A DNA stretch of 46,722 bases, taken from assembly GCA_902766045.1 (NCBI GenBank), contig CACXCA010000079.1, positions 1-46,722 on the forward strand, in the 5' to 3' direction. Below the pieces are notes generated by a model that worked only from the letters and a program-made list of their open reading frames with translations, was not told where the DNA came from and searched no databases. Positions 2,124 to 41,348 of the stretch are shown one piece after another. Positions within the stretch are counted from its first letter, which is position 1. The number at the start of each line of letters is the position of its first letter. This DNA comes from an uncultured Bacteroidales bacterium. Its GTDB lineage: Bacteria; Bacteroidota; Bacteroidia; Bacteroidales; Paludibacteraceae. Made by a program: the position numbers and the translations under genes.

Positions 2124-4289
2124 TTAATTACGACTAACTGATTTCACGCCTTTTATCGTTTTTATCTTGTTAATGATCTGCTCCAGCTGTTTCATGTCCG
2201 AGACATTTACGGTTAAGTTACCTTGAAACAGTCCATCGACTGAATTAACTGAAATAGAACGCAACGACACATTCGTCTCCTTTTGGATCAACGACGTGAT
2301 ATTTGTCACAATTCCTATATCATCATTTCCAATAACACGTAACGTGCAGGCATACAGCTTATCCGATGATTTTCCTGCCCAACGAGCTTTGATAAATCGA
2401 TAGCCAAAACGAGACATCATCTGTGGAGCATTCGGACAATCCGTCCGATGTATTTTTATACCATTATGAATAGATACGAATCCAAATATATCATCACCAT
2501 AAATAGGATTACAACACTTAGACAATGTATATTCAATACCTTTCAAATGATTATCGATCACCAACACATCCTCTTTCGAAGAGATGGTTTGTAATTCTGT
2601 CATCTGAGTAAAGTTCTCGGCTCCTTTCTGCGTCTCTGTGATAGCGTCCTTCTCTTGACAAGAGACATACATATCCTTCAGCTTCGACACATCCAATTTA
2701 TCCTCAGCCAGAGCTTGATAAAAATCCTGAATGGCTTTATAGCCACATTTTTGAGCCAAGCGGAAGACAACACTCTCGTCATAGACTAATTTCCAATTCT
2801 TCAATCTTCTCTTAATCAACTCCTTGCCTTCTTCCATATTGACAGCCTCTTGCTGACGAATAAACTGTTTAATACGTGTTTTGGCTTTGGATGTTTGAAC
2901 AAAAGAGAGCCACTCCTTATGAGGTTCCTGACTATTATTGGTAAAAATCTCTACCTGATCACCATTATGCAGTTCTGTACGGATAGTAACACTTTTACCA
3001 TTCACTTTACCACCTACGCAATGGCATCCCAAACCAGAATGGATATCAAACGCAAAATCCAAGATGGTCGCACCTTTTGGCAACTTCCTCAAATCACCTG
3101 TTGGTGTAAATACAAAGATCTCCTTTTTGTACAGACTCAATTTGAAGTCATCCATATATTCAGTCGAATCCGATTGAGGATTCTCCAACAGTTCCCTAAC
3201 ATTGGACAACCACGAATCAAAATTGGCTTCTCCCTTGATACCTTTGTATTTAAAATGAGCAGCAAAACCCTTCTCTGCAATCTCATCCATCCGTTCCGTA
3301 CGGATCTGCACCTCTACCCATTTTCCTTCTGGTCCCATCACCGTGGTATGCAAAGACTCATATCCGTTTGATTTAGGAATAGACAACCAGTCCCTTAATC
3401 GTTTAGGATTGGGCTGATATTTATCCGTCACCAATGAATAGACCTGCCAACAATCAGCCTTCTCTCTTTCTAACGGAGAAGAGAGGATGACACGGATGGC
3501 AAATATATCATATATATTCTCAAAGGCAGTGTTCTGCTTCTTCATCTTATTCCAGATAGAATAAATGGACTTCGTACGTCCCTTGATAGAAAAAGTAAAA
3601 CCAGCTTTCTCCAATTCTGTTTTTAATGGAGCAATAAACGCATCAATATATCGCTCACGCTCACTCTTCGTCTCATGCAATTTCATTGCAATCTCCTTGT
3701 AAATCGGATAATTAGTATATTTCAAAGAGAGATCTTCTAATTCTGACTTAATACGATATAAGCCTAAACGATGAGCCAATGGTGCATATAAGTAAGAAGC
3801 TTCCTGTGCAATACGATCTTTACGTTCTTTGTCATATTGCTCAATCGTCCGCATCAAATACAACTGCTCACAAATTAAGATGATGACAACACGGATATCC
3901 TCCACGATTGTCAACAATAACTTACGGAAATTCTCCGACTCAACAGATGGATTTTTCTTATATAACTCTCTCGATTTCAGCAAACCAGACAAGATAGAAT
4001 TCACTTGCTCACCAAATTTCTCTTTCACCTCCTCCTGCGGAAGCAAATTCTCCTTTACGGCCCGATAAACTAAAATACTTTCCACCGGTATCTTACCTAT
4101 ATTTGCCTCTTCCATCAGAATATAGGCGACATCTAACGACTGATGATAATGAGCCGTTTTTTCTTCGTCTAACTCTTCCTCAAAAACAGGTTGATAGATG
4201 GCAATTAAAGATAACTTCTCCGAATCTGTCAAAGACAGTTCCGGAGAAGCTACTAAATTATTGAATCTTTCTATTACTATTTTTTCCAT
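2124..4289 (-). CDS. relA: RelA/SpoT-family (p)ppGpp synthetase with degenerate HD domain
   Basis: Long RSH protein of 721 aa that makes the stringent-response alarmone (p)ppGpp. The order is: N-terminal HD-like domain (about 1-170), synthetase domain (about 215-350, with GRTKSIYSIWNKMKK, YDIFAIRVI, SNGYESLHT and EVQIRTERMDEIAEKG), TGS (about 390-450), a Cys-containing region (KCCNP, 591-595; HRTDCPN, 614-620) and a C-terminal ACT domain (about 647-721). The hydrolase residues are gone: the usual HD and ED motifs are replaced by LVYRAVKEN (73-81), and RLHNMRTL reads QLYLMRTI (142-149). I infer a synthetase-only enzyme, with a SpoT-like hydrolase elsewhere. It lies 10 bases downstream of the 203-aa hypothetical gene. 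Confidence 0.93.
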   Translation of the reverse strand: MEKIVIERFNNLVASPELSLTDSEKLSLIAIYQPVFEEELDEEKTAHYHQSLDVAYILMEEANIGKIPVESILVYRAVKENLLPQEEVKEKFGEQVNSILSGLLKSRELYKKNPSVESENFRKLLLTIVEDIRVVIILICEQLYLMRTIEQYDKERKDRIAQEASYLYAPLAHRLGLYRIKSELEDLSLKYTNYPIYKEIAMKLHETKSERERYIDAFIAPLKTELEKAGFTFSIKGRTKSIYSIWNKMKKQNTAFENIYDIFAIRVILSSPLEREKADCWQVYSLVTDKYQPNPKRLRDWLSIPKSNGYESLHTTVMGPEGKWVEVQIRTERMDEIAEKGFAAHFKYKGIKGEANFDSWLSNVRELLENPQSDSTEYMDDFKLSLYKKEIFVFTPTGDLRKLPKGATILDFAFDIHSGLGCHCVGGKVNGKSVTIRTELHNGDQVEIFTNNSQEPHKEWLSFVQTSKAKTRIKQFIRQQEAVNMEEGKELIKRRLKNWKLVYDESVVFRLAQKCGYKAIQDFYQALAEDKLDVSKLKDMYVSCQEKDAITETQKGAENFTQMTELQTISSKEDVLVIDNHLKGIEYTLSKCCNPIYGDDIFGFVSIHNGIKIHRTDCPNAPQMMSRFGYRFIKARWAGKSSDKLYACTLRVIGNDDIGIVTNITSLIQKETNVSLRSISVNSVDGLFQGNLTVNVSDMKQLEQIINKIKTIKGVKSVSRN

Positions 4290-4299
4290 TCAAATCGTA

Positions 4300-4911
4300 T
4301 CATTTCACCTTAGCACCTTTTGAGATCATCAAAACAGGGAAGGCATATTGCACCATCCAATCCTCTGAAAATCCCAATTTTTCTTTTAATGCACGCACAT
4401 CCACGGCTGCACGCCTTGCATCTGCTGCTTTGAAGTCATTCGACGTCAAAATCTTATGAATTGCATCCTTGGTCGAAGATTTTATCAACTTACGGAAAAA
4501 GCCTGGCAAACGAAGCGACATACCCATTTCCGATGATAAAGCCATGAACAGCTGTTGGAAGAAAGCTTGCAACATGCTGAAATAAGACTGCATATCTTGT
4601 ACCTTTTTACAATTCTTTTTGGCAGAAGAATCTATCCCTTTAAAAAAGGATTCATCCATTCCATATTCATTCATCATCAATTCACTTACAAAAGCTTTTT
4701 CCGCAACGCCTAAACGTCCTTGTGTAGGGATTTTAAACTTCTGTTTCATCAATTTTAAATCAGGCAACATACGCAAATCAACAATTCCTAGATTTACAGC
4801 CATCGTCGCTTGTAAATAAACACCGAACAACGAGTTGAAATCTTGTACTCTGTTCTGTGCCTCCTCTTGCATGGCAGCCTGCTTTTTCTGTAATTTCTCT
4901 GTCAATCCCAT
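4300..4911 (-). CDS. Conserved hypothetical protein, 203 aa
   Basis: I do not recognise a named domain. The protein is soluble-looking, without a signal peptide, rich in Met, Lys and Phe, and largely predicted helical. Its first 25 residues (LQKKQAAMQEEAQNRVQD) look like a short coiled coil. It lies between the YugP-like peptidase (14 bases upstream) and relA (10 bases downstream) on the same strand, so it very likely shares their transcript. That placement beside relA and ribE suggests a housekeeping role but does not identify one. Confidence 0.75.
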   Translation of the reverse strand: MGLTEKLQKKQAAMQEEAQNRVQDFNSLFGVYLQATMAVNLGIVDLRMLPDLKLMKQKFKIPTQGRLGVAEKAFVSELMMNEYGMDESFFKGIDSSAKKNCKKVQDMQSYFSMLQAFFQQLFMALSSEMGMSLRLPGFFRKLIKSSTKDAIHKILTSNDFKAADARRAAVDVRALKEKLGFSEDWMVQYAFPVLMISKGAKVK

Positions 4912-4925
4912 CTTTTATGTATTTT

Positions 4926-5597
4926 TTAGTTTCTTCTTCCCATATAAATTAATATGTAATAGATCAATGAGGCCAAAGAACTTAATGCAGCTACAACATA
5001 CGTATATGCTGCAGAACGCAATGCCTTCTTAGCCATGTCATGATTAGAAAAATCACTTACTCCTGAATTTTTCAACCAAGCCAAAGCACGTGAACTAGCA
5101 TCTATTTCTACTGGCAATGTTACAAAACTGAAAAGTGTAGTCACTGCAAATAAACAAATACCGATCAATAACAACTGAGGGAATATGTTGATTAAAATGA
5201 TTCCTCCCAAGATGATCCATGTCACCCACTTACTTGCAAAGCTTACAGCAGGCACCATAGCGGAACGCATTTTCAAGAATGCGTAGCCTCTTGCATGTTG
5301 TACCGCATGACCACATTCATGTGCAGCCACAGCCGCTGCCGCAATATTTGCACAATCATAAACACTTTCACTCAAATTCAATGTTTTATCCACTGGATTA
5401 TAATGATCTGTCAATTTGCCGGATGTGGAACATACTTTCACATCGTCAATACCATTATCTCTCAACATCTTTTCTGCCACCTCTCTACCTGTCATAGAAA
5501 TAGCTGACTTTGAATATTCGTCGAATCGATGCGTTAATACTTTCTGTACAATCCAACTCATGAGAGCAATGAGTCCAAATAATACCCAATAATACAT
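4926..5597 (-). CDS. YugP-like zinc metallopeptidase, membrane-bound
   Basis: A 223-aa protein of the neutral zinc metallopeptidase (YugP/Zn_peptidase_2) family. An N-terminal membrane segment (about 3-20) is followed by the zinc motif AHECGHAVQHA (HExxH form, about residues 93-103). Hydrophobic helices then follow (about 123-160 and 195-220), typical of this membrane family. The segment GREVAEKMLRDNGI is a typical family N-terminal region. Substrates are not known for the family. It is the probable first gene of a unit with the 203-aa protein, relA and ribE, with 14 bases to the next gene. The 119-base gap upstream shows no exact TAnnTTTG box. Confidence 0.9.
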   Translation of the reverse strand: MYYWVLFGLIALMSWIVQKVLTHRFDEYSKSAISMTGREVAEKMLRDNGIDDVKVCSTSGKLTDHYNPVDKTLNLSESVYDCANIAAAAVAAHECGHAVQHARGYAFLKMRSAMVPAVSFASKWVTWIILGGIILINIFPQLLLIGICLFAVTTLFSFVTLPVEIDASSRALAWLKNSGVSDFSNHDMAKKALRSAAYTYVVAALSSLASLIYYILIYMGRRN

Positions 5598-14538: not shown

Positions 14539-14568
14539 AAGAGGACAGATTTTCAAGTCCTCTTTTTA
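14539..14568 (+). terminator. Rho-independent terminator of tex
   Basis: Stem AAGAGGAC (14539-14546), 10-base loop, stem GTCCTCTT (14557-14564), then TTTATT. It lies between convergent tex and the TPR gene and overlaps the end of the latter by a few bases. Confidence 0.85.
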
Positions 14569-15177
14569 TTTACATGCTTTAATTCCTTGCATTGCAGACT
14601 CACTACTTGGTTGTATAATCAACGCCTGATTAAACAACTGTTTGGCTTTTTCTATTTTCTTTAAGTAATAAGAATTCCAAGCAGAAAGTATAACAATATC
14701 GTAATCAAAAGGATACAAAGATTCGATACGATCAAAATAAGGAGCTGCCTTTGCATATTCTCCAATATTATAATACATCAACCCTCTATAATAATTAGCT
14801 TTACTATTGTTTGGGTCTTGTTTTAATATAGCTTCGTACTGAGCGGCAACCTTATCCCATGCTTTCATTTTTGCAGCTGGCAGGACATATCCGAAGCGAG
14901 CTTCGATAGAAGTAGGTCTTGATTGAATGCTTCGTGAATAATAAAACAAAGAGTTTTTATAATCGCCATTGATATAATAAAGCCACCCCAATCTTAAATT
15001 GACCGCATAGGTGTCCATTCTTAATGACAACAATTCACTGATAGCATTTGCATATTGTTTGGATTCCTCATAAGCATAACTTTTTCGAAATGCCTCTCTT
15101 TTTATATCTTGAGCCATTACCCCAACAGACAGAGTCATCACAACAATTGTAAAAAAAAGTTTCTTTAAAATTCCCAT
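14566..15177 (-). CDS. Exported TPR-repeat protein, last gene of the PqqD/ATP-grasp operon
   Basis: A 203-aa protein with a signal peptide (about 1-22, LFFTIVVMTLSVGVMAQ) and four to five tetratricopeptide-like repeats. Examples are VNLRLGWLYYINGDYKNSLFYYSRSI, NSKANYYRGLMYYNIGEYAKAAPYFDRI and AWNSYYLKKIEKAKQLFNQALIIQPSSESA. It should sit in the periplasm as a protein-interaction adaptor. Its start overlaps the end of the barrel gene by 13 bases, so the two are translationally coupled, and the product probably partners with that barrel. No catalytic motif is seen. Confidence 0.85.
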   Translation of the reverse strand: MGILKKLFFTIVVMTLSVGVMAQDIKREAFRKSYAYEESKQYANAISELLSLRMDTYAVNLRLGWLYYINGDYKNSLFYYSRSIQSRPTSIEARFGYVLPAAKMKAWDKVAAQYEAILKQDPNNSKANYYRGLMYYNIGEYAKAAPYFDRIESLYPFDYDIVILSAWNSYYLKKIEKAKQLFNQALIIQPSSESAMQGIKACK

Positions 15178-16673
15178 TTTACGCCCATTGATAAAACATG
15201 ATCATATACATTCTCTGAGGCTAAATAAAAAGCATTTACATCAAAACTTGATACTGTAGCCATTCTATTTGTTATGCGATAAGTCACATATACATTCCAA
15301 CTATTTTGCAATGGAACAATCACTTGTGCAGAACATCGAAAACGTGTTCCATCGCTTAGCAAATATACAACATTTACTCCACAATCCTCACTTCCTCTTA
15401 AATCTCCATACAAAAAAGATCCTTTCAGCCACAAATAAGGCAACATCCTTCGTCCAACGGAAGCCTCAAATATAGGGCATTTCGAGATCTTTTTATTTCG
15501 CAGATCTTCTAAACCTATAGTTTCTGTTTTATTCTTTTCTTTTCGCCACAAATAAATGATTTTCCCTTGTACATAAAGACTCAAATCCCCTTTTGGATAC
15601 CATACATAATATGCTCCGATCTGTACAACATTATACATGGGTGATCTCATGAAAGAGCTACGGAACAGAAAATCATGGTGTTTATAATACTTTCCTACAG
15701 AAGCACCCAATATAAAAGAAAACCTTTTATCTGATTTTTTTTCGTTGGTATAATACTTTAACAATTGTTCCCGATAGTCTTTTTCATTATATTGTTGACT
15801 CTGATAATACTTCATATATTCCCTGTAGAAATAATCATAATAACTATTCCAATATCCAAACCCATACGAATAAGGATTATAAGACCATCCGTTATAAAAA
15901 TTATTGTACCAGTTGTTGTTATAGAATCCGCCCCACGGATTATTATTTCCATTATTATACCACGGATTCCATATTGGCATTGGATCTACCGCACTATTAT
16001 TGTGCTGGTCATTGGCATACGCTATCGAATCAAAATCATAAACGCTCACCTCCTGCTTCGAAACCATGATCTTACCGAACACTGAAAAACGCCAGCCATT
16101 TCTGTGCAACAGATTCGCTTCGGCTCCATAATCGAACGTATGAGCATCTAATTCATCTGAAAACAGATTCTCCTCCCCTACATCAAATAGACTGATATAC
16201 CCTTGTTTTGTGAAACCAATGGACTGACTTACCGATAGGCGTTGGTTGATATTTCTATCATATGCCCCACGAAGCGAAATACCATCTTTCAAATTATATC
16301 CACCTGACGATATATAATCTGCATTACCCGAACATTCATGCGATTGATGAAGCCAAGAACACTCTACATACACCGACTGCTTCTTCTGAAATGTACTCAC
16401 AAAACTCTTTCGATTCATGTAAAAAGATGCCTTATCCAACCCTGTACGTACATCTGCATCAGCTCCATCCTGATCATAGGCACTAGTCAGATAGTAATAA
16501 GCATTTGCATAATCTCCGAAATCCAACCATGTGAGACCGATTCTTTTGGACTCTTCAAACTTCAGATTCCACGGAGCAATGCTATCAATAGAATAATACG
16601 AATCTTTATTCTCTGCCATCGCTGACAAAGAACAAATCATACAAAAAAGATATGTTCGTATTATTCTACTCAT
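15165..16673 (-). CDS. Outer-membrane beta-barrel protein with Asn/Tyr-rich insert
   Basis: A 502-aa protein with signal peptide (about 1-20, LFCMICSLSAMAE). A short TPR-like helical region follows (about 35-90, RIGLTWLDFGDYANAYYYLTSAY), then alternating amphipathic strands that end in a C-terminal aromatic residue (SMGVKWEF), as expected for an outer-membrane barrel. Residues about 235-305 form a striking low-complexity insert of Asn, Tyr, Trp and Gly (for example NNNPWGGFYNNNWYNNFYNG), probably a surface or periplasmic loop. It starts one base from the end of the transporter-peptidase gene and overlaps the downstream TPR gene, so it belongs to the operon. I infer an export or surface-anchoring pore; the substrate is unknown. 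Confidence 0.8.
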   Translation of the reverse strand: MSRIIRTYLFCMICSLSAMAENKDSYYSIDSIAPWNLKFEESKRIGLTWLDFGDYANAYYYLTSAYDQDGADADVRTGLDKASFYMNRKSFVSTFQKKQSVYVECSWLHQSHECSGNADYISSGGYNLKDGISLRGAYDRNINQRLSVSQSIGFTKQGYISLFDVGEENLFSDELDAHTFDYGAEANLLHRNGWRFSVFGKIMVSKQEVSVYDFDSIAYANDQHNNSAVDPMPIWNPWYNNGNNNPWGGFYNNNWYNNFYNGWSYNPYSYGFGYWNSYYDYFYREYMKYYQSQQYNEKDYREQLLKYYTNEKKSDKRFSFILGASVGKYYKHHDFLFRSSFMRSPMYNVVQIGAYYVWYPKGDLSLYVQGKIIYLWRKEKNKTETIGLEDLRNKKISKCPIFEASVGRRMLPYLWLKGSFLYGDLRGSEDCGVNVVYLLSDGTRFRCSAQVIVPLQNSWNVYVTYRITNRMATVSSFDVNAFYLASENVYDHVLSMGVKWEF

Positions 16674-18818
16674 TCATTTATTAATTTGTATGTTCCATAC
16701 AGACTGCTTGTCGGATACCTTCACATTTTTTATCTGATTAGACTGATATACCGTCTCAAAAGAGACATTGGATATCTCCTTTTTACATATTTTTTTGATC
16801 CATTTTGTCCGCAATACACCTCCGTCCATCGAATCCACCCTATAATTGTAATCCATAAAGAAAAATACGGGCGAACAGATATCCTGAATCCACCCTAATG
16901 GGGTATTCGCCTTCAAAGTCAGCGGATATTTCTCTTCCAATTGATATTTTTCCGAAACGAAATAGACTCTGTAATTAGACAAGAAGAAATAAAATAAATT
17001 GGAGCGTTTTTCACCTTCATATCGTTGGAAACAGAAATCTTCTTCTCGATACGCATACCATGCTTTTGCTCCCGTCTGATGACAATACAAATAATTATAT
17101 CCGTACTGCATGCAGACCTCCCACGTCTCTTCTCCAAATTTATCTGAATAGGCAGTCATGCGATTGCCGACAATAAACTTATATCGATCAGCCATGGCAG
17201 AATCGAATATCATATTCGAGACGATATCATTGTCTTTTGGGATACCTGCGGAAACAGGATGAGATAAGTTCAACTCATTTTTACAGAAATAAGAAGATAA
17301 CTTATACTCCAACGTAGGGGCACCCACATACGATGAAGATTGGAACTGGAAGTGCAAATGAGGATAAGGAGAGAGTCCTGAGTTTCCACATAAGCCAAGC
17401 ACATCACCTTTTCGAACCGTATCTCCAATCTTATATCGAACAGAATCCGTTTTCAGATGAGCCACCAAGGAATACAATGTATCTGTATGTTTTATCAACA
17501 CATAATTACCCCAATTCTGTTCAACATTCTTCTGCCCTATCGGATTATCGACCACATTGTTTCGCAGATCCACAATACTACCAGATGAGACTGCAATAAC
17601 AGGCTTACCATAACAATAATAATCGGTCAACATATATCCATCATCCTTATAGACCGCCCCATCTATTTCCAATTGGAAATCCAAGGCATGTCGCCACAAA
17701 CCTTGATGTGTATATTCGCCATCATACGCCTGGGTTACCTTCCATTCTCCCATAAACGGAAGTGAAAATGGATAATAGTTTAGATAATCAAACCGCTCCT
17801 TATTGACCGAATGATAATAAATATTATCTTCTGGTGTAGCTTCCAAGAAATAAGAGAAATAGGGACTTGTCAGCACCTCTCTTCGTTTCATCAAGTACAA
17901 GAACAAAACGCTCACAAGACAGAACGTCAGAGAGAAGGTTGGCAACATAAAATAAGACAACAGACGTGTCGATGAAAAGACTACAAGGTATTGTGCTGGA
18001 ATCAATAACAATATCCAGGCATACGTTGATTTAGATGGCACCAAATAACATCCCCCCAGAGCCAGAGAGGTAAATATAAAGTTAAAGCCAAAATACATAA
18101 ATGGGATATGGAAGATGTCAAACTCAAACCATCCATAGCAGAAATAAGCCATGACAAAACCTAAGAATGTTGAGCAAAAAGCTATACGAGAGAAGCACAG
18201 CAGAGCCAACATCAATAATGTTCCTGAAAGGATATCGGACTGAAAAAAGACATAGCCTAAACTCTTTAAATAAAACAGTATCGGTTGTGGAAGATATTGA
18301 CAAAAAGAGAGTCCCTCAACCGACTCGACAGAGAAAGCACCGATCGAGAGTGCGTGCTGAGTCGTCATCGGGAAGACATTCACATCCACATATCCATCAG
18401 TTTGTTGGAACACCAATAAAACAAGCCAGAGACAAAACAAGAACGGGAAGGCTAAAAAAGGCAATCCATATTTTTGCAACCATCCATCCATAGCAATCGT
18501 CAGCAATAGCACCAACACAGACAAAGCAAAAATAAGAGCAATCAGCAACGCATCGTAAGTAAAAAATGCGCCTAAGGCTATGCCTACCAACACAGCATTG
18601 AATCCATATAATCCTGTCTCTATCTTATATTTATTCAGATTGAGCATGATCGACATGGAGTTAACCATCATACAACAGAACAACCCACATACACCCTGCG
18701 CTGGATATAACATAGTAAGCGAAAGCAATAATATTCCAAACCATCTGCTTCGTGAAAAGAAGATGGCCGAATAGCTATATACTATACTTTTAAGAAAAAG
18801 ATTCAATGCCTCTTTCAT
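16674..18818 (-). CDS. Urea-transporter-like membrane domain fused to M23 peptidase
   Basis: A 714-aa fusion. Residues about 20-310 are a polytopic membrane domain resembling the urea transporter family, with GLYGFNAVLVGIALGAFF (69-86), YCYGWFEFDIFHIPFMYFGFNF and the repeat-like duplication expected of that fold. Residues about 355-510 are an M23 (LytM-type) metallopeptidase: HQGLWRHALDF with H377 and D380, VAHLK with H454, and PYPHLHFQF with H487 and H489, so the zinc residues look intact. A C-terminal about 200-residue soluble region is unrecognised. The peptidase would face the periplasm. In this operon it could transport or process the product made by the ATP-grasp and decarboxylase enzymes; that is inference. 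The gene lies 20 bases after the decarboxylase gene and directly abuts the barrel gene. Confidence 0.85.
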   Translation of the reverse strand: MKEALNLFLKSIVYSYSAIFFSRSRWFGILLLSLTMLYPAQGVCGLFCCMMVNSMSIMLNLNKYKIETGLYGFNAVLVGIALGAFFTYDALLIALIFALSVLVLLLTIAMDGWLQKYGLPFLAFPFLFCLWLVLLVFQQTDGYVDVNVFPMTTQHALSIGAFSVESVEGLSFCQYLPQPILFYLKSLGYVFFQSDILSGTLLMLALLCFSRIAFCSTFLGFVMAYFCYGWFEFDIFHIPFMYFGFNFIFTSLALGGCYLVPSKSTYAWILLLIPAQYLVVFSSTRLLSYFMLPTFSLTFCLVSVLFLYLMKRREVLTSPYFSYFLEATPEDNIYYHSVNKERFDYLNYYPFSLPFMGEWKVTQAYDGEYTHQGLWRHALDFQLEIDGAVYKDDGYMLTDYYCYGKPVIAVSSGSIVDLRNNVVDNPIGQKNVEQNWGNYVLIKHTDTLYSLVAHLKTDSVRYKIGDTVRKGDVLGLCGNSGLSPYPHLHFQFQSSSYVGAPTLEYKLSSYFCKNELNLSHPVSAGIPKDNDIVSNMIFDSAMADRYKFIVGNRMTAYSDKFGEETWEVCMQYGYNYLYCHQTGAKAWYAYREEDFCFQRYEGEKRSNLFYFFLSNYRVYFVSEKYQLEEKYPLTLKANTPLGWIQDICSPVFFFMDYNYRVDSMDGGVLRTKWIKKICKKEISNVSFETVYQSNQIKNVKVSDKQSVWNIQINK

Positions 18819-18838
18819 ACGATTTCATTATCATTTTT

Positions 18839-20182
18839 TCATTCTTCCAATGCCGTCACATAGTCATAATCTTCTGGACGGCGTATTGTTTTCACCTCTC
18901 CTTTTTCTTTTATCATAACAATCGATGGTCTGTATTCTATAAACTGCATCCATTGCGTCACATTGTATGCTCCCACATAATGGAATAACAGCATCTGACC
19001 AGGATTTAACAATGGCAAAGAGACACGATCACGTAGCACATCGATATTCATACACAAAGGCCCTGTCAAGCGTGTTTCTTCGATACAGGTTGTTGGAGCC
19101 TGCACAACCGACACTTTATGATTATACCAAAACGAGGTGAATAACAGATTCACACCCGCATCTATCACCACATTCGACCGGCCATCTGCCAAGCGTTTCG
19201 TTGTCAGCACAGATGACAATAAATAGCCTGCATCGTCAATCAAGGCTCTGCCCGTCTCCAGAATCAGCATAGGCATCTGTCTGGAAGGGAACGGAGTATT
19301 CATCAACACAGAAGTAATCGCTTCCGCATACTCATCCATGGAAGGAGCCAACTCAGCGCCATTCTCATAGGATCCCTTTAACGTGTTTTTAGAAGCAAAT
19401 CCACCTCCCATATCAATGTACGAAAGTGAATGAGTATATTCACGTTCTATACGGCATGCAAGATCAGCCATCTTATGGGTGGCCTTCCGATATATATCTG
19501 TCGAAAGAATGAAAGTCCCCACATGACAATGCAGTCCCACCAACTCCAAGCACTCCTCTTTCATCACCTGAGCAATGGCTTGCCAAGCTGAACCATTCTC
19601 ATAATTAAAACCAAAGCGATCCCAGCGAGGATAGGTGCCAACATCCATATTCACACGAACAGCCACCCTTGCTTTACGGTTCTGCGCCTTAGCAATCGAT
19701 ACAAGCAGGCATAATTCTCGGCTATTATCGATATGTACCAAAGAATCATTCTGTACAGCTCGAATCAAATCGGCTTCTGATTTTGCTGCCCCATTAAATA
19801 TAATCTTTGTCGGGTCACATCCATTATCAATAGCCTTCTGATATTCCATACCCGAAACCACTTCCGCCCAACTACCCTCTTCATGAAACAGGCGACATAT
19901 AGACGATAAATAGTTAGTCTTGTATGACCATGCAAATGCGACCGACTTATACCTTGTCAAGAAAGCCTGACGAGCTTTCCTAATATTAGAGCGTATCTGC
20001 ATTTCTGAAAAAACAAATAACGGTGTACCATTCTTAGAGGCTAATAACTTCAAAGAGACACCATCTATTTCCGAAACAACAGAAACAGATGCCGGCATAC
20101 CTGCCTTCCCTGGCATCGAAGATTCAATACTCTTCAACAAAGGTCTTTCATATACTTTCTTTTCTCTCATATCAATCAGCAT
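18839..20182 (-). CDS. DapDC-type (fold III) PLP-dependent decarboxylase
   Basis: A 447-aa alanine-racemase-fold decarboxylase of the diaminopimelate/ornithine decarboxylase group. The PLP lysine is in AWSYKTNYL (about residue 88). HCHVGT, the glycine-rich MGGGFASK, the phosphate-site ETGRAL and the C-terminal GAYN are all present. The usual GPxCESxD motif reads GPLCMNIDVL, keeping the catalytic Cys but losing the Glu-Ser, so the substrate probably differs from meso-diaminopimelate. An alternative ATG at 20170 lies one base after the ATP-grasp stop; the longer start overlaps it by 11 bases. Set between an ATP-grasp ligase and a membrane-peptidase fusion, it is likely a pathway-specific enzyme and not the housekeeping lysA. 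Confidence 0.88.
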   Translation of the reverse strand: MLIDMREKKVYERPLLKSIESSMPGKAGMPASVSVVSEIDGVSLKLLASKNGTPLFVFSEMQIRSNIRKARQAFLTRYKSVAFAWSYKTNYLSSICRLFHEEGSWAEVVSGMEYQKAIDNGCDPTKIIFNGAAKSEADLIRAVQNDSLVHIDNSRELCLLVSIAKAQNRKARVAVRVNMDVGTYPRWDRFGFNYENGSAWQAIAQVMKEECLELVGLHCHVGTFILSTDIYRKATHKMADLACRIEREYTHSLSYIDMGGGFASKNTLKGSYENGAELAPSMDEYAEAITSVLMNTPFPSRQMPMLILETGRALIDDAGYLLSSVLTTKRLADGRSNVVIDAGVNLLFTSFWYNHKVSVVQAPTTCIEETRLTGPLCMNIDVLRDRVSLPLLNPGQMLLFHYVGAYNVTQWMQFIEYRPSIVMIKEKGEVKTIRRPEDYDYVTALEE

Positions 20183-21248
20183 TCACTTTTTCATGATCAT
20201 AAGACAACTCACTTTTTACTGAAAAGGTTCCGAAATCCGAATAATCAACAATCATATCCCACGAATATCGTATAAACAATTTTCCCACCTGATAGGACTG
20301 ATACGGCAACACTTCTTGCTCGAGCGCCATCTTCACAATCAACTCAGGGATATTCTGTCCTGCTGCTGTAGCCAAATAACACCAAGCTGGAATCCTAGGA
20401 TTCACCTCCAACAGATGATACTCCCCATCATTGGATTTCATCAACTCCAACTCAAAGGAGCCCATCCATTGAGTGGCAGCCACAAACCGTCGGGCAACCT
20501 CCATCAAGGGTTTATCATCGATGGTAATTCCAGACCATGCCTTCCCTTTATCCGTGATAAACATCTTTCGCATGGATACAGCCGACAACAACTCGCCTCG
20601 TCCATCACCCACGCCTATAAGATTGTATTCTGTACCCGACACATATTTTTGTACGATGATTGGGAATCCCCATGACAAAGATATCTTATGGAATGCAGAG
20701 TACATCTGTTCTTTATCATACACTATCGATGCTTCATAATAACGTCCCTTCACCACCAATGGATATTCCATCTTCTCCTTCTCCATTAAGAGTTCGTCTA
20801 TCGAATAATAGTTCTTACTGGACGGCACCGCAATATGAGCTTTTTCACCCAACTCAGGCAATGAACTTTTCTGTCTCATATCAAACTGCTCCGGTGTCGG
20901 GATGACCAGACGAATACCCAACTCCGTTCGTAATCGGCTCTGCAACTTGATATAGGGATGCAGTTCCGAATCAAAATTAGGGATGATAACATCAATCGGA
21001 TCCTTCGAATGAATATACATCAATCGATTCCAAAGCACATCCGCACCTTCACTTGGATAAGGCATCTCATAACAGACATCCACCAGATCTTTCATATAGA
21101 CACCTGGTTCCAACGGACTATAACAGAGTCCCACCAATCGTGCATCTTTGAAAGACGACTCACGTAAACTTCGAAGAACAGAGACACCAGGACCTGGATT
21201 ATCTATTGCATTAAGTCCGCTCACCGCTATAGTTAACTGCCTACTCAT
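20172..21248 (-). CDS. ATP-grasp ligase (carboxylate-amine ligase type)
   Basis: A 358-aa ATP-grasp enzyme. The N-terminal region is Rossmann-like (LTIAVSGLNAIDNPGPGVSVLRSLRE, then VDVIIPNFDSELH). The ATP lysines are in YPLVVKGRYYEA and IIVQKYVSGTEYN, and the magnesium motif is HLLEVNPRIPAW. The resemblance is to CarB- or PylC-like ATP-grasp proteins that join a carboxylate to an amine. I chose the ATG at 21248 (MSRQLTIAV) over the upstream alternative at 21287 because it gives an 8-base overlap with the PqqD-like gene stop (ATGAGTAG). The overlap implies coupled expression. The substrate is not predictable; a carrier-linked amino acid or peptide is an inference from the neighbours. Confidence 0.88.
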   Translation of the reverse strand: MSRQLTIAVSGLNAIDNPGPGVSVLRSLRESSFKDARLVGLCYSPLEPGVYMKDLVDVCYEMPYPSEGADVLWNRLMYIHSKDPIDVIIPNFDSELHPYIKLQSRLRTELGIRLVIPTPEQFDMRQKSSLPELGEKAHIAVPSSKNYYSIDELLMEKEKMEYPLVVKGRYYEASIVYDKEQMYSAFHKISLSWGFPIIVQKYVSGTEYNLIGVGDGRGELLSAVSMRKMFITDKGKAWSGITIDDKPLMEVARRFVAATQWMGSFELELMKSNDGEYHLLEVNPRIPAWCYLATAAGQNIPELIVKMALEQEVLPYQSYQVGKLFIRYSWDMIVDYSDFGTFSVKSELSYDHEKVNAD

Positions 21249-21483
21249 CCAATAACTCTTTATATCGTAAAAGAAATAGAAAATCACTTAAATCTGCCTG
21301 CAAAGTAGGAAGGTCAACATCATACATCTCCTGAAGATACAAAAGTAAACTCTCCTCTGTCTGTTCTGTTTTCAACAGAGAAAAAAGATCCATCGCTGAC
21401 GCATTAAGAGAGAAACTCTCCCCACTACGCGGATTCAACAAAAAGCCCTCCGGACTAACGATACAATCACTTTTTATCTTCAT
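21241..21483 (-). CDS. PqqD-like small carrier/chaperone, first gene of operon
   Basis: An 80-aa protein matching the PqqD fold pattern: SPEGFLLNPRSGESFSLNASAMDLFSLL is the characteristic two-strand and helix start, followed by a helical C-terminus (LPTLQADLSDFLFLLRYKELL). PqqD-family proteins bind precursor peptides (RiPP recognition element) in peptide-modifying pathways. The start at 21483 is chosen because a longer TTG start at 21507 lies inside the promoter -7 box (21505-21512) and would precede the transcript. The neighbours are an ATP-grasp ligase (8-base overlap) and a PLP decarboxylase. No short precursor peptide gene is visible next to it, so the client may be encoded elsewhere or be one of the operon proteins. 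Confidence 0.85.
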   Translation of the reverse strand: MKIKSDCIVSPEGFLLNPRSGESFSLNASAMDLFSLLKTEQTEESLLLYLQEMYDVDLPTLQADLSDFLFLLRYKELLDE

Positions 21484-21504
21484 ACACTCACGTTTTATTA
21501 TTAG

Positions 21505-21512
21505 CAAAGATA
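21505..21512 (-). promoter_or_regulatory. Promoter -7 box of PqqD/ATP-grasp operon
   Basis: TATCTTTG on the minus strand matches TAnnTTTG. The start of transcription is predicted near 21498, giving a very short leader of about 15 bases before ATG 21483. It lies only 22 bases from the end of the upstream aldo/keto reductase gene, showing that the operon has its own promoter. Confidence 0.75.
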
Positions 21513-35181: not shown

Positions 35182-35916
35182 ATGCTATTCCACACATACG
35201 GAAATAAAGAGAAACGAAGTCTGCTCCTGATCCACGGATTGGGAGTCTCTCATGAGATATTCCTGCCACTGATAGATTTGTTGAAGGACGACTTCTACAT
35301 CGTCGCAGTGGGAATCGACGGATTCCTGTTGGGACAGACCTCGCAATATACCTCTATCGATGACCAAGCCATGCAGGCGGCTCGGTATGTTCGAGAGAAC
35401 TTGGACGGACATCTGGACGTTGCCTACGGTCTCTCCTTGGGTGGAAAGATTCTGTCCCGAATCTTGGAACGGAATGAGATAGTAATCGACCATGCCATCA
35501 TGGATGCGGCGCCATTGTTGCCTCTTCCCAAGTGGTGCGTGGATCCCCTTCGGTATTACCAGAGTTTCAACGTGTGGACCTGCTATCACTGCACGGGCTT
35601 TTGGAAGTTCATCTTCCATTCCCACTATTTCGACGTGTTGTTGAACGAATGTAAGAAGGTGTGGCCTTATGGAAAGGGCAAATCGGTGCGCGACGGCTAC
35701 AAGGATGTCTATACCCATAAGCTAGAATCGATTCACGGGGCGGATATCCATTTCTGGTATGGTACCAAAGAGGCTTTCGTGGCGAAACCACAGGCGAAGC
35801 ATCTATGCGAAATCCAGCCAGATACACACGTCGAGATCTTCCCCGGTATGAATCACGGGCAACTATTGGTTGACCATCCGGAAGATGTGGCCAAGAGGAT
35901 TCTTGGTATGGTGTAA
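35182..35916 (+). CDS. Alpha/beta hydrolase
   Basis: A 244-aa hydrolase. The oxyanion strand is LLLIHGLGVSHEIFLPL (about 14-30), the nucleophile elbow is VAYGLSLGGKIL (GxSxG, Ser at about 86), and the catalytic His is in FPGMNHGQLLVDHPEDVA near residue 225; the acid is probably in the strand before IHFWYGTKE. There is no signal peptide, so it is cytoplasmic. The substrate is unknown; similar small hydrolases act on esters. The GC-rich coding sequence contrasts with the AT-rich upstream gap. The GNAT gene starts 20 bases downstream, so the two probably share a transcript. Confidence 0.88.
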   Translation: MLFHTYGNKEKRSLLLIHGLGVSHEIFLPLIDLLKDDFYIVAVGIDGFLLGQTSQYTSIDDQAMQAARYVRENLDGHLDVAYGLSLGGKILSRILERNEIVIDHAIMDAAPLLPLPKWCVDPLRYYQSFNVWTCYHCTGFWKFIFHSHYFDVLLNECKKVWPYGKGKSVRDGYKDVYTHKLESIHGADIHFWYGTKEAFVAKPQAKHLCEIQPDTHVEIFPGMNHGQLLVDHPEDVAKRILGMV

Positions 35917-36466: not shown

Positions 36467-37093
36467 ATGAAACTATCTAAAACACTCATATTCGCAATTA
36501 TATTGTTCGTTGTTGTAAACACGCAGTTCCTTTGGGAAGGGGAATTGGGATTTTTAACCTTTCTAATTGACTTCATATTATTTGTGTGTGTGGTTGTGCT
36601 TTTCGTACTTTTTGTTAAAAAGGGGTATAAACTCGTGAGAGAAAAAGTTCGGAATAGACGGGATGTGGTTGAATTAGTGGCATACATACGTGTAAGAGGG
36701 CTGTTGCCTGTGAACTGGAATAGACGGGATGTGGTTGAATTAGTGGCCATTTTCGGGATATTATGCATAATAGCAGTTTGGCCGTATGGAATTATACAAA
36801 GGACTGACATAGAGTCACCCGCCATCATGAAGGCATCTCGCAGAGGCGTTGCGGGAAGTAGCTATGCCCTTTATCTGAAAGAAGATGGCACCTTCCGTGA
36901 CAGACAAATATGTTTTGGAGTTTATGATGAAACAGGTACTTACCGCATCTCAAATGACACTATCTATTTTTTCAGTGATGATTATCAGTTTGATTATGCG
37001 GTGATGGATTCCACCACCATAAGAGTTCATATGAAGCGTGCAAAAGATAAAAATGCATTATCGAATGCTGTTTATTATATACATAACGATTAA
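36467..37093 (+). CDS. Membrane protein of unknown function, paralogue A
   Basis: A 208-aa protein with a hydrophobic N-terminus (about 5-55, two helices, including NTQFLWEGELG) and a third helix at about 88-103. A beta-rich periplasmic or extracytoplasmic domain follows (YALYLKEDGTFRDRQICFGVYDETGTYRISNDTIYFFSDDYQFDYAVMDSTTIRVHMK). It is clearly paralogous to the next gene. Relative to that paralogue it has an extra 22-residue segment produced by a 66-bp in-frame duplication (NRRDVVELVA twice). Function is not recognised. It follows the GNAT gene by 30 bases. Confidence 0.75.
   Translation: MKLSKTLIFAIILFVVVNTQFLWEGELGFLTFLIDFILFVCVVVLFVLFVKKGYKLVREKVRNRRDVVELVAYIRVRGLLPVNWNRRDVVELVAIFGILCIIAVWPYGIIQRTDIESPAIMKASRRGVAGSSYALYLKEDGTFRDRQICFGVYDETGTYRISNDTIYFFSDDYQFDYAVMDSTTIRVHMKRAKDKNALSNAVYYIHND
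36651..36747 (+). repeat. 66-bp in-frame duplication inside paralogue A
   Basis: A 31-bp block starting GGAATAGACGGGATGTGG occurs at 36651-36681 and again at 36717-36747, exactly 66 bases (22 codons) apart and identical. The reading frame is preserved. Confidence 0.85.
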
Positions 37094-37681: not shown

Positions 37682-37723
37682 ATGGAAATGTTTGTGGGGA
37701 GTTCTCCTACGTTAGTTTTTGTC

Positions 37724-37731
37724 TATATTTG
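37724..37731 (+). promoter_or_regulatory. Promoter -7 box of secreted 307-aa protein gene
   Basis: TATATTTG matches TAnnTTTG, 30 bases before ATG 37761. The longer start at 37719 would lie upstream of transcription. Confidence 0.65.
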
Positions 37732-37760
37732 TTGGGTTTTCATCAAAAAATATTTTAGGA

Positions 37761-38684
37761 ATGATGGGGTTGCTTATATATCATAAATGCTCAGGTAAAT
37801 ATCTGTGCTACATCGGTGCGGTACTCGCTTTTTTACTTATGTCCGCTTCTGCGGATGCACAAAACAATGCAAATAGTGAACCGATAAATGTGGATTGCAC
37901 GTGTCATAGGTATATTTCCGACTTGCCGCCTATGTACTTTATGGAAGATTCATGTGAATATGAGTTTAGCCGTTCCAATGTGCTGAAATTATGCTATAAG
38001 ACGCTTGACTACAAAGATTCTTTGCGGATAGGCAACCATTGGTTCTTTTTTACTGTCAAATGCACTTTCCCATATTCATCATACTCTTGCATGAAGTCGG
38101 AATTGACGGTTCATAAGTCAATTCGTGATTACATCTATCGGGACACTGCACATATATACAATTACACGCGCTACTCTGATGAACGGGCAATGAACCTTTA
38201 TGCCAAACGAGAGTTTGACAAATTCGTATCAGAGATCAAAGATTTCTGCGAAAATACCGAGAATTGTCCGAAGGCAGACTGGGTGGTGACCATAACGACG
38301 CACCCCATCTACGAAAACGACTCAATCGTGACAATGAGCATTCAAACGTACTATTACTTATACGATGCGGCATATAGCACTTGTGTCAACGAAGCGGCTT
38401 CATTCAACAAAAAAATAGGGTTTCAATATGGCTTTGACTTGCTCTCCAAGTACAGTACCTCTGAAATAAATACCCTGCTAAAAGAGGGGTTAAAATCCTA
38501 TCTTGGAATCACTTCGGATGAAGAATTGAAAAATGAGTTGCCAAACTTCATAGATATAAATAATATTCCTCTTCCTCGCTATTGTCCATTTATAACCCGC
38601 AAAGGGGTTCGTTTGGTCTATCAAAATCATGAGATATGGGGCCATGCTGGCGGATTCCCCAATTTTTTCATACCGTTAAAATAA
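37761..38684 (+). CDS. Secreted hypothetical protein, 307 aa
   Basis: Unrecognised protein with a signal peptide (about 12-34, YLCYIGAVLAFLLMSASADAQ). The mature part is Cys-rich for an extracellular protein (VDCTCHRYIS, CYKTLDYKD, CTFPYSSYSCMKS, CENTENCPKADW) and has a region resembling RsiV/PdaC-like domains in its pattern of YYYLYDAAYSTCVNEAASFNKKIG followed by LLKEGLKSYLGI near 245-270. I do not rely on that resemblance. The start at 37761 fits the -7 box at 37724. It follows the paralogous pair on the same strand but has its own promoter. Confidence 0.7.
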   Translation: MMGLLIYHKCSGKYLCYIGAVLAFLLMSASADAQNNANSEPINVDCTCHRYISDLPPMYFMEDSCEYEFSRSNVLKLCYKTLDYKDSLRIGNHWFFFTVKCTFPYSSYSCMKSELTVHKSIRDYIYRDTAHIYNYTRYSDERAMNLYAKREFDKFVSEIKDFCENTENCPKADWVVTITTHPIYENDSIVTMSIQTYYYLYDAAYSTCVNEAASFNKKIGFQYGFDLLSKYSTSEINTLLKEGLKSYLGITSDEELKNELPNFIDINNIPLPRYCPFITRKGVRLVYQNHEIWGHAGGFPNFFIPLK

Positions 38685-39383: not shown

Positions 39384-40493
39384 TTATTCCTGTTTTTTTA
39401 ATTCACATTCAATTTCTTCGATTGTCGGCAATGCAGATTTCCATTTGTCGGTCATTTCGGTATTTAATCCTGTTTCCCACGAAGCAACTCCAATAGGTTT
39501 ATTTACCGAATCCAATGAATATCTGACAATAATCTCTTTTTTACTTTTTACAAGTAGCAAACCGATTGTTGGAGTGTCGGAAGGATGTTTTAGTACAACA
39601 TCAACAATGTTTTGATACATCACTAATTGCCCCATCATGCCCGGTTCAAAGTCAACAGCCTTTAACTCAACCACAACAAAGCAACGTAATTTAAGATGAT
39701 AAAAAAGCATGTCAATGTAAAAATCTTCTCCGCCTAGTTCCAAATGAATCTGCCTGCCAACATACGAAAATCCTTGACCAAGTTCAAGTAAGAATTTCTC
39801 GACATGGGAAGACAGAGCGTCTTCAATATCTTTTTCCCTGCTATTGGCGTCAGCACCAGTGAAATCTAACAAAAAAGGGTCTTTGAAAAGATATCGCATC
39901 ATATCCGAATCAATGTCAGGCAACGTCGCATCGAAATTGTTCGGGAGTTTGCCTTCTCTCTCTAATGTGTATGCCTGCTGTTGTAAATCCAAAATATTAT
40001 GACTCCAACCGTATTTCAAAGACGCCGCTGCATATAAAAGACGTCTGTTCGGTTCTTTTATCTTTTCCATCAGACAAATGTTGTGCCGCCACGATAATTG
40101 TGCAACGGTGCGTTGCACAATTTCCTCATCAGACCAAATTTCAGCAAATTTACGCATATATTTCAGATTACGGGGAGAGAACCCTTTCAACTCAGGATAC
40201 GCAGTTTTAATATCCGCCGAAAGTTTGTCTATGATTTTGGCACCCCATCCTTCGGATGCTTGCTGTTGCAATATGTTTTTGCCAATTCGGTAGTACATCA
40301 TCATCATCTGAGAATTGGCACTAACCATCACTTTACGACGAGAATTGGAAATCTCAGCCTTAATGGAATTAAAGAACTCTCCATACCACGCTGGCAATTC
40401 TGCATCAGATATGGCAACAGGGAAGAAAACACCCTTTTCCTCAGGTTTGAATCCCTTTCTAGATTCATCATGGTCAATTTTTTCTTTTTTCAT
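39384..40493 (-). CDS. YhcG-type PD-(D/E)XK nuclease protein (DUF1016)
   Basis: A 369-aa protein with the DUF1016 N-terminal domain (SRRKVMVSANSQMMMMYYRIGKNIL, FSPRNLKYMRKFAEIW, VAQLSWRHNICLMEKI). The C-terminal YhcG nuclease domain has GFSYVGRQIHLELGGEDFYIDMLFYHLKLRCFVVVELKAVDFEPGMMGQLVMY, including the D and ExK residues (FYIDML, VVVELK). These proteins are found near mobile and restriction loci; their role is unresolved. A -7 box lies 155 bases upstream, leaving a long leader in which a 38-codon frame (40517-40633) begins 8 bases after the predicted start. Confidence 0.92.
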   Translation of the reverse strand: MKKEKIDHDESRKGFKPEEKGVFFPVAISDAELPAWYGEFFNSIKAEISNSRRKVMVSANSQMMMMYYRIGKNILQQQASEGWGAKIIDKLSADIKTAYPELKGFSPRNLKYMRKFAEIWSDEEIVQRTVAQLSWRHNICLMEKIKEPNRRLLYAAASLKYGWSHNILDLQQQAYTLEREGKLPNNFDATLPDIDSDMMRYLFKDPFLLDFTGADANSREKDIEDALSSHVEKFLLELGQGFSYVGRQIHLELGGEDFYIDMLFYHLKLRCFVVVELKAVDFEPGMMGQLVMYQNIVDVVLKHPSDTPTIGLLLVKSKKEIIVRYSLDSVNKPIGVASWETGLNTEMTDKWKSALPTIEEIECELKKQE

Positions 40494-40724: not shown

Positions 40725-41348
40725 CTATCTCCCTCCCTCATTAATACACCATTGCAACTCCTCCAGAAACCGTGCAGCATCCCCACCGTCCATCTGCGTG
40801 TGATGGAACTGGAACGAGATGGGTAATGTGGTCTTAAACCATCCCTTGCGGTATTTCCCCCACATCACCATCGGGTTGTTGAAGACGCCACTGTACTGGT
40901 TGACGATGCTGTCGAGCTCCGTCTCCACCATGGCGGAGGTGCCGATTACCATGGCATCCTCTATGGTGATGCTCTCGCAGGATGTGCTTACCGATTGAGT
41001 CCGTGAGAGATAGTCTGCATTGAACTGCTGCAAATCATCCGTGTAGGGGATGCTGCAGGAGTTGATGCCTCCCGCATGGTTATTCACGATCACGTCGATG
41101 GCAAGTTGGTCGTATCGGTACAGCTTATCACCTTCGGGCAGCATCCGAAACTCTTCGATGCGGCTGGCCGCCTTACCGATGCACCAGCATAGGAGCATGG
41201 TGAACTTCCACCCTCCCCTCTTGCTTTGCTTGAGGAGACGGGTCACGTCGAAGGTCTTGGTGAGTGTCACCATTGGCATGGGCGACTTCATCCACATCTC
41301 GAAGGCATACGCCCGATTGGTCTCTTGAGGGTTGATTTCCTGTTTCAT
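40725..41348 (-). CDS. CAT-family O-acetyltransferase
   Basis: A 207-aa member of the chloramphenicol acetyltransferase (CatA-type) family. The catalytic motif HHTQMDG is at residues 182-188 (HHxxxDG; catalytic His183). TMLLCWCIGKAASRIEEFRML and PISFQFHHTQ match family blocks. Whether it acetylates chloramphenicol cannot be told; many chromosomal Bacteroidota members act on unknown hydroxyl substrates, and the acyl donor is presumed to be acetyl-CoA. It starts 2 bases after the HEAT-like gene stop, so the two are cotranscribed. GC content is higher than that of its neighbours. Confidence 0.88.
   Translation of the reverse strand: MKQEINPQETNRAYAFEMWMKSPMPMVTLTKTFDVTRLLKQSKRGGWKFTMLLCWCIGKAASRIEEFRMLPEGDKLYRYDQLAIDVIVNNHAGGINSCSIPYTDDLQQFNADYLSRTQSVSTSCESITIEDAMVIGTSAMVETELDSIVNQYSGVFNNPMVMWGKYRKGWFKTTLPISFQFHHTQMDGGDAARFLEELQWCINEGGR

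Follow-up and report, generated by a model that had tools for sequence, protein, structure and literature searches.

What does a PqqD-like recognition protein recognise when no precursor peptide is encoded beside it? The question is raised by a six-gene operon on contig CACXCA010000079.1 of an uncultured Bacteroidales bacterium from the family Paludibacteraceae (GCA_902766045.1). The stretch of 46,722 nucleotides that was analysed, called the window below, sits within a 3.35-Mb genome (code G000). A sequence-only reading of it had proposed a pathway for ribosomally synthesized and post-translationally modified peptides (RiPPs) or for carrier-linked ligation, built around a PqqD-like carrier. 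We give about even chances to a different arrangement, a pathway guided by a RiPP recognition element (RRE), where the N-terminal tail of the decarboxylase itself would serve as the leader peptide.

All six open reading frames (ORFs) lie on the - strand (21483 to 14566). Three of the junctions between genes are overlaps, of 8, 11 and 13 bases, and at the other two the gaps are 0 and 20 bases. In the order of transcription the features are:

21241-21483, - strand, PqqD-like protein of 80 residues with an ATG start, putative lasso-type RRE (PF05402; TbiB1/TfuB1 profile matches)
20172-21248, - strand, ATP-grasp ligase of 358 residues, its start overlapping the end of the PqqD-like gene (PF15632, 2pn1, 16-row alignment A1)
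18839-20182, - strand, pyridoxal phosphate (PLP) decarboxylase of the alanine-racemase fold, 447 residues (PF02784/PF00278; nearest solved structure 7kh2)
20099-20152, - strand, decarboxylase residues Y11-G28, the leader-like tail, YERPLLKSIESSMPGKAG (fixed residues in 131 homologues)
20107-20105, - strand, codon of K26 in the decarboxylase tail
16674-18818, - strand, UT-M23, a fusion of a urea-transporter (UT) family domain with an M23 peptidase (PF03253, PF01551)
about 17892-18791, - strand, urea-transporter-family membrane domain of UT-M23 (PF03253)
about 17319-17759, - strand, M23 metallopeptidase domain of UT-M23, then a C-terminal region (PF01551)
15165-16673, - strand, predicted 14-strand outer-membrane beta-barrel, N-terminal helices with a weak match to the tetratricopeptide repeat (TPR) (structure prediction)
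14566-15177, - strand, TPR protein, probably exported (TPR_2; N-terminal signal-like sequence by eye)

A PqqD-like protein and a leader-like tail

The PqqD-like protein of the window matched PF05402 (E 4.6e-11 to 6.2e-11), and the same model was matched by 37/37 of its homologues. Comparison of the family profile with the PDB gave TbiB1 (5v1u/5v1v) as the best match (E 9.4e-14), followed by TfuB1 (6.6e-8) and PqqC/D (0.0019). Among curated models, a lasso PqqD chaperone scored highest against the window protein, at a value under its cut-off. The assignment to the PqqD family made in the earlier reading was therefore upheld; the role was not, as the protein looks from its sequence like a lasso-type RRE, a recognition domain rather than a carrier. 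Some RRE groups bind W/Y/LxxP/L/I motifs, as described in PMC12710340.

Of 137 loci, 136 contain the decarboxylase, the remaining locus (L076) ending short of the gene. Every decarboxylase found opens with an N-terminal tail of the consensus KxxYERPxIxKLxxGMPNKFG, within which lies the lasso-leader motif YxxPx(L/I). The statistics of the tail were taken from 131 retained sequences, with numbering from the Tyr/Phe of the motif. This first position is Tyr in 122/131 and Phe in 9/131, while Pro at +3, Ile/Leu/Val at +5 and Lys at +15 are each kept in 131/131 and Gly at +17 in 130/131. Between Tyr and Gly +17 there is not a single indel in the 131 sequences, and the distance from Tyr to the catalytic domain is 41 residues in 126/130. 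The tail is present in all 33 loci of the phylum sample besides the window, L182 having Ala for the last Gly. In lasso precursors, YxxPxL occupies -17 to -12, position -2 holds a special residue and position +1 a Gly (PMC10368454); placed in this register, the tail has its invariant lysine at -2 and its glycine at +1. In one lasso system, phosphorylation was insensitive to single substitutions at -17 and at -12 (PMC10368454). Family and motif taken together make it quite probable that the RRE pairs with this tail.

A separate precursor peptide carrying the same tag was sought with tag profile A2 (32 rows, 6 of them derived from the genomes searched) in the 34 genomes that carry the operon. The operon decarboxylase was the top match in 34/34, the window's own genome had no second match at E<=10, and no convincing second carrier was obtained. 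The tag-profile match was weak in G347 (0.054) and G374 (0.87), and the divergent tails (L182, L185) retain the lysine. The best stray match, a 47-residue ORF in G153 (E 0.0078), was rejected as it lies antisense inside a 416-residue ORF. Because the gaps are of 20 bases or less, the operon has no room for a precursor gene. A precursor peptide was thus not found, and the matching tag sits on the decarboxylase; the result applies to this tag, and a precursor with another leader may lie elsewhere.

The profile of the decarboxylase gave at least 150 rows in 395 phylum genomes. In the same 34 operon genomes 35 rows start at profile positions 1-3, and the other 115/115 matches listed start at position 11 or later, past the Tyr and Pro of the tag. 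Six of these with early alignment starts were read for the motif and none has it. Distant pairs of ATP-grasp and decarboxylase genes, at 22-27% identity, occur at L026, L027 and L029 with no PqqD hit in about 4 kb; the decarboxylases of these three pairs lack the tail. By eye, the neighbours at L026 and L029 resemble glycosyltransferase or surface-sugar genes.

The enzymes, the envelope proteins and the extent of the operon

The decarboxylase matched both Orn/DAP/Arg decarboxylase domains (PF02784, PF00278) and is of the DapDC/FslC type, in agreement with the earlier assignment. Its nearest solved structure is N-citrylornithine decarboxylase 7kh2 (sequence E 9.6e-56, predicted fold E 4.2e-40), and the BtrK structure 7ru7 was also among the fold matches. 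The scores remained under the cut-offs of diaminopimelate decarboxylase TIGR01048 (237.1 bits against 297.9) and FslC NF041039 (205.2 bits against 500). According to PMC7857480, FigC/FslC, SbnH, AcsE, MccE and BtrK share a clade with DapDC and D-ornithine decarboxylase, and the substrates of the first five are conjugates of amino acids with citrate, with a peptide-nucleotide or with a carrier protein. Since several decarboxylases of the clade act on conjugated amino acids, the invariant lysine of the tail may be a built-in acceptor. The ATP-grasp ligase, named as such in the earlier reading, is of the PRK12767/ATPgrasp_Ter type (PF15632 E 2.6e-11; nearest solved structure 2pn1, E 2.3e-13); with 11 bits against the rimK_fam cut-off of 143.4 it falls outside the RimK-type graspetide ligases.

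The polytopic transporter–M23 fusion seen in the sequence-only reading is indeed a membrane domain joined to a peptidase (UT PF03253 1.1e-47, 163 bits against a cut-off of 25; Peptidase_M23 PF01551 7e-15); its transporter part has to be reassigned to the urea-channel family. The score against the urea transporter Yut (TIGR03441) was 96.8 bits, under the equivalog cut-off of 274.6. Among 117 sequences the two Phe gate positions of urea transporters are kept in 112/117 and 113/117, and the position equivalent to Glu187 is mostly Ala/Ser/Leu. The window copy is also without the equivalents of Gln24 and Thr130; the residues of the urea site are conserved only in part. The zinc-binding and catalytic M23 residues H371, D380, H454, H487 and H489 are kept in 117/117. 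Lys/Arg stands just past the last UT membrane helix at position 311 in 71/117 and at position 313 in 104/117, a weak indication of a cytosolic M23. C402 and C477 of M23 are singly lost in 29/117 and never both; cysteine makes up 1.3 per 100 residues of the M23 part, 0.25 of the TPR protein and 0.26 of the barrel. The cysteine hint of a cytosolic M23 was dropped: read by eye, 9 of 11 M23 relatives begin with a signal-like sequence, and C402 or C477 occurs in most of the same 11, both of them in L205, which undercuts the hint.

The outer-membrane barrel is supported as a prediction, with 14 strands; it had no Pfam match above the cut-off, and its Foldseek match to FadL has a root-mean-square deviation near 8. 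The TPR protein matched TPR_2 (E 1e-16). Three proteins were without a match in the PHROGs search.

Conservation was assessed in three samples: 20 family loci, 80 named loci and the 33 phylum loci, none of which had gone into the profiles applied to them. The named sample consists of the best 80 of at least 566 confirmed relatives; three of its loci duplicate DNA already in the family sample, which leaves 77 further contigs. In the phylum loci the PqqD-like, ATP-grasp, decarboxylase and UT-M23 genes were each present in 33, and the barrel and TPR genes in 30. The complete six-gene set occurred in 30/33 phylum, 17/20 family and 58/80 named loci. Many incomplete loci run off the contig end, and a second count took in only loci whose contig continues for 8 kb or more downstream. 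Among these, UT-M23 was present in 18/18 of the family, 56/57 of the named and 30/30 of the phylum sample, and the full set of six in 15/18, 52/57 and 28/30, respectively. Order and strand are identical in 103 of the 105 complete loci (two of which duplicate contigs already counted), the TPR gene lying upstream in the other two, so the operon is not a chance arrangement. The view of one conserved six-gene unit was confirmed by this synteny, and the two points on which the sequence-only reading had staked it beforehand, co-occurrence of the genes and a PqqD fold, both held at the level of sequence.

The ATP-grasp gene was detected at E < 1e-100 in 24 of 120 family genomes, the window's own included, and is adjoined by the PqqD-like gene and the decarboxylase in all 24. 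It was present in 34 of the 395 phylum genomes (again with the window's own), and UT-M23 in the identical 34; the remaining UT-M23 profile matches listed span the M23 part only. Three UT-M23 matches stop near residue 515-540, and the G124 copy is split into two parts and contains a stop. Barrel and TPR are jointly absent, with at least 8 kb downstream, from L032, L033, L036, L054, L166 and L182 (L059 repeats L033), and they therefore look accessory to a core of four genes: PqqD-like, ATP-grasp, decarboxylase and UT-M23. At L094 the RRE, the ATP-grasp and the tagged decarboxylase are followed by 10 kb that contain neither UT-M23 nor barrel nor TPR, a natural three-gene form.

Most record titles of the named sample point to Bacteroidales, Flavobacteriales, Chitinophagales or other Bacteroidota; a few odd affiliations (L090, Chlorobiota; L097, Bifidobacterium breve) go by the title alone. 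The nearest ATP-grasp relative in that sample, at 76% identity, comes from a Paludibacteraceae metagenome assembly (L051). In some relatives (L035, L037-L039) a WG-repeat protein stands between the decarboxylase and UT-M23; its cluster comprises 6 loci, two being repeats of the same contigs. Contig 1 of G243 has two equal-scoring ATP-grasp copies near its opposite ends (3928-4959 and 3735344-3736375), perhaps an assembly overlap. The plasmid search matched one record, in the M23 part only.

At the boundaries, the start of the PqqD-like gene was re-placed to ATG 21483 instead of TTG 21507, and that of the ATP-grasp gene to ATG 21248 instead of GTG 21287. The private promoter claimed earlier, TATCTTTG at 21505-21512, is not shown, because the pattern TAnnTTTG is common in the window (57 times against 45.5 expected, sd 6.3) and the gene upstream stops 50 bases ahead of the PqqD-like start. 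The terminator-bounded end is weakly supported: there is a perfect 8-bp hairpin at 14564-14539 (by eye), but it has no T-run, and the terminator scan listed nothing at the operon end. The aldo-keto reductase upstream was rejected as an operon member, because among 137 loci tblastn finds the gene at two, L031 and the window itself.

Regulator clusters lie beside the operon: among 100 loci there were AraC-type helix-turn-helix proteins at 32, LytTR at 19, LytS-like histidine kinases at 10 and sigma-70 region 2 at 3, identities that rest on one scanned representative per cluster (L082:8851-9492, L099:8925-9626, L106:7835-8893, L093:12559-13134). Elsewhere the window encodes a YhcG-type PDDEXK nuclease (39384-40493) and a protein assigned by sequence to the chloramphenicol-acetyltransferase family (40725-41348; PF00302 6e-17). 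Two + strand ORFs (36467-37093, 37719-38684) are without a Pfam match at 1e-5, and an alpha/beta hydrolase lies near them at 35182.

Possible roles of the tail

In the arrangement that we propose, the PqqD-like protein would bind YxxPx(I/L) of the decarboxylase tail and thereby bring the decarboxylase close to the ATP-grasp ligase, with K26 held at a fixed distance (leader position -2). The ligase might then join an amino acid, via its side-chain carboxylate, to K26, and the decarboxylase domain might strip the alpha-carboxylate from the tethered substrate; the tail would act in place of BtrI, the carrier of butirosin synthesis. The UT channel and the M23 domain may release or pass on the product, with the barrel and the TPR protein as a putative accessory envelope part. 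That a conjugate is exported through the two membranes, as suggested earlier, is conjecture. The covalent use of K26 we regard as less likely than not. The whole assembly of leader, acceptor lysine, stand-alone RRE, ATP-grasp loading and UT–peptidase coupling in Bacteroidota, with the decarboxylase as its own carrier, appears somewhat unlikely.

Several points weigh against this proposal. The lasso-register match is one spotted after the fact. The most frequent further glycine of the tail is at +11 (87/131), unlike that of lasso leaders, which carry glycine near +9. The predicted model has residues 16-18 as a short strand, and the tail may therefore be packed against its own enzyme. The conservation of K26 may just as well reflect cleavage at this point or a contact made in docking. 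A periplasmic M23, which the signal-like starts of its relatives suggest, could not act on the tail, and UT-M23 is not always beside the core (L094). Two members of the decarboxylase clade, DapDC and D-ornithine decarboxylase, work on free amino acids (PMC7857480). Finally, PMC7470986 warns of false positives, and perhaps of helix-turn-helix regulators, among lasso-type matches for discrete RREs.

The alternative that survives best, unlikely though we hold it to be, is that the RRE merely docks the tagged decarboxylase to the ATP-grasp ligase, both enzymes using free small molecules and the tail staying unmodified; an amino acid would be ligated and then decarboxylated, as with N-citrylornithine. 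The FslC-like sequence and fold of the decarboxylase, with a shared GPxCM..D stretch, fit this reading, and so does the end-to-start overlap of the three genes concerned. Docking leaves unexplained, however, why K26 (131/131) and G28 (130/131) are fixed 10-12 residues past the Ile/Leu of the motif.

Clearly less probable is a true leader function, in which the RRE presents the tail to a protease that cuts between residue 27 and G28 and so matures the decarboxylase, with K26 as the peptidase recognition residue in the manner of the lasso Thr(-2). The pattern of fixed -2 and +1 positions around a more variable -1 (F 102/131) resembles lasso cleavage sites as given in PMC10368454. The core operon also has an M23 peptidase with its five active-site residues kept (117/117), and the positive flank (311 in 71/117, 313 in 104/117) suggests a cytosolic C-terminal part of UT-M23. 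Yet no lasso-type leader peptidase is among the six genes, 9/11 M23 relatives carry signal-like starts (by eye), and the ATP-grasp ligase would be left without explanation.

Least probable of all is a gate, the tail folding into its own or a partner subunit's active site, where K26 would block or complete it until PqqD-like binding opens the enzyme in the presence of the ATP-grasp product; the fixed 41-residue length (126/130) and the predicted short strand agree with it, whereas residues 21-30 are poorly modelled (mean pLDDT 56).

Comparison with known systems

The RRE-guided use of the decarboxylase tail resembles the lasso B1 proteins (TbiB1, TfuB1, PadeB1) in the RRE family by profile, YxxPx(L/I), the fixed -2 residue and Gly at +1. 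It differs in that the motif is on a 447-residue enzyme, whereas the lasso motif is on a short precursor. Pfam domains of a lasso cyclase (Asn-synthetase-like) or leader peptidase were absent from the six genes and two neighbours, no genome-wide search having been made.

In butirosin biosynthesis, BtrJ is the ATP-grasp loader. The operon shares with BtrI/BtrJ/BtrK an ATP-grasp enzyme and an alanine-racemase-fold decarboxylase, BtrK acting on a carrier-bound amino acid (PMC7857480), and differs in having an RRE and a tagged decarboxylase in place of the carrier protein gene. No carrier protein was seen among the six genes by Pfam or, by eye, among 17 neighbour-cluster representatives, no genome-wide search having been made. 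The lasso and the BtrI/J/K assignments each fail on a defining feature.

FslC/FigC is the closest solved structure to the operon decarboxylase in sequence and fold, but the family score is far under the cut-off and the alignment begins after the tail. The PEARLs and TglA (3-thiaglutamate) likewise build small molecules on a ribosomal peptide; there, tRNA amino acids are added to separate peptides, whereas the operon has an ATP-grasp ligase and an enzyme tail. The UT domain belongs with dvUT/Yut in PF03253 and keeps the two Phe gate positions, but it is fused to M23, has the Glu187 position altered and scores under the Yut cut-off.

In the open-licence PMC literature we found no paper on the six-gene set, no description of an enzyme that bears a lasso-type leader next to a stand-alone RRE and no urea-channel domain with an M23 peptidase in such a setting. 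The single parts are known; the combination of an enzyme-borne leader with a stand-alone RRE was not found described. If true, the proposal could account for PqqD-like genes without an adjoining precursor, and it offers a simple rule for other genomes: seek YxxPxL tails on partner enzymes. RREs serve as markers of peptide natural products. Their roles would widen to a recognised leader that is part of an enzyme, with ribosomal leader recognition running a small-molecule amine pathway and not the synthesis of a peptide natural product.

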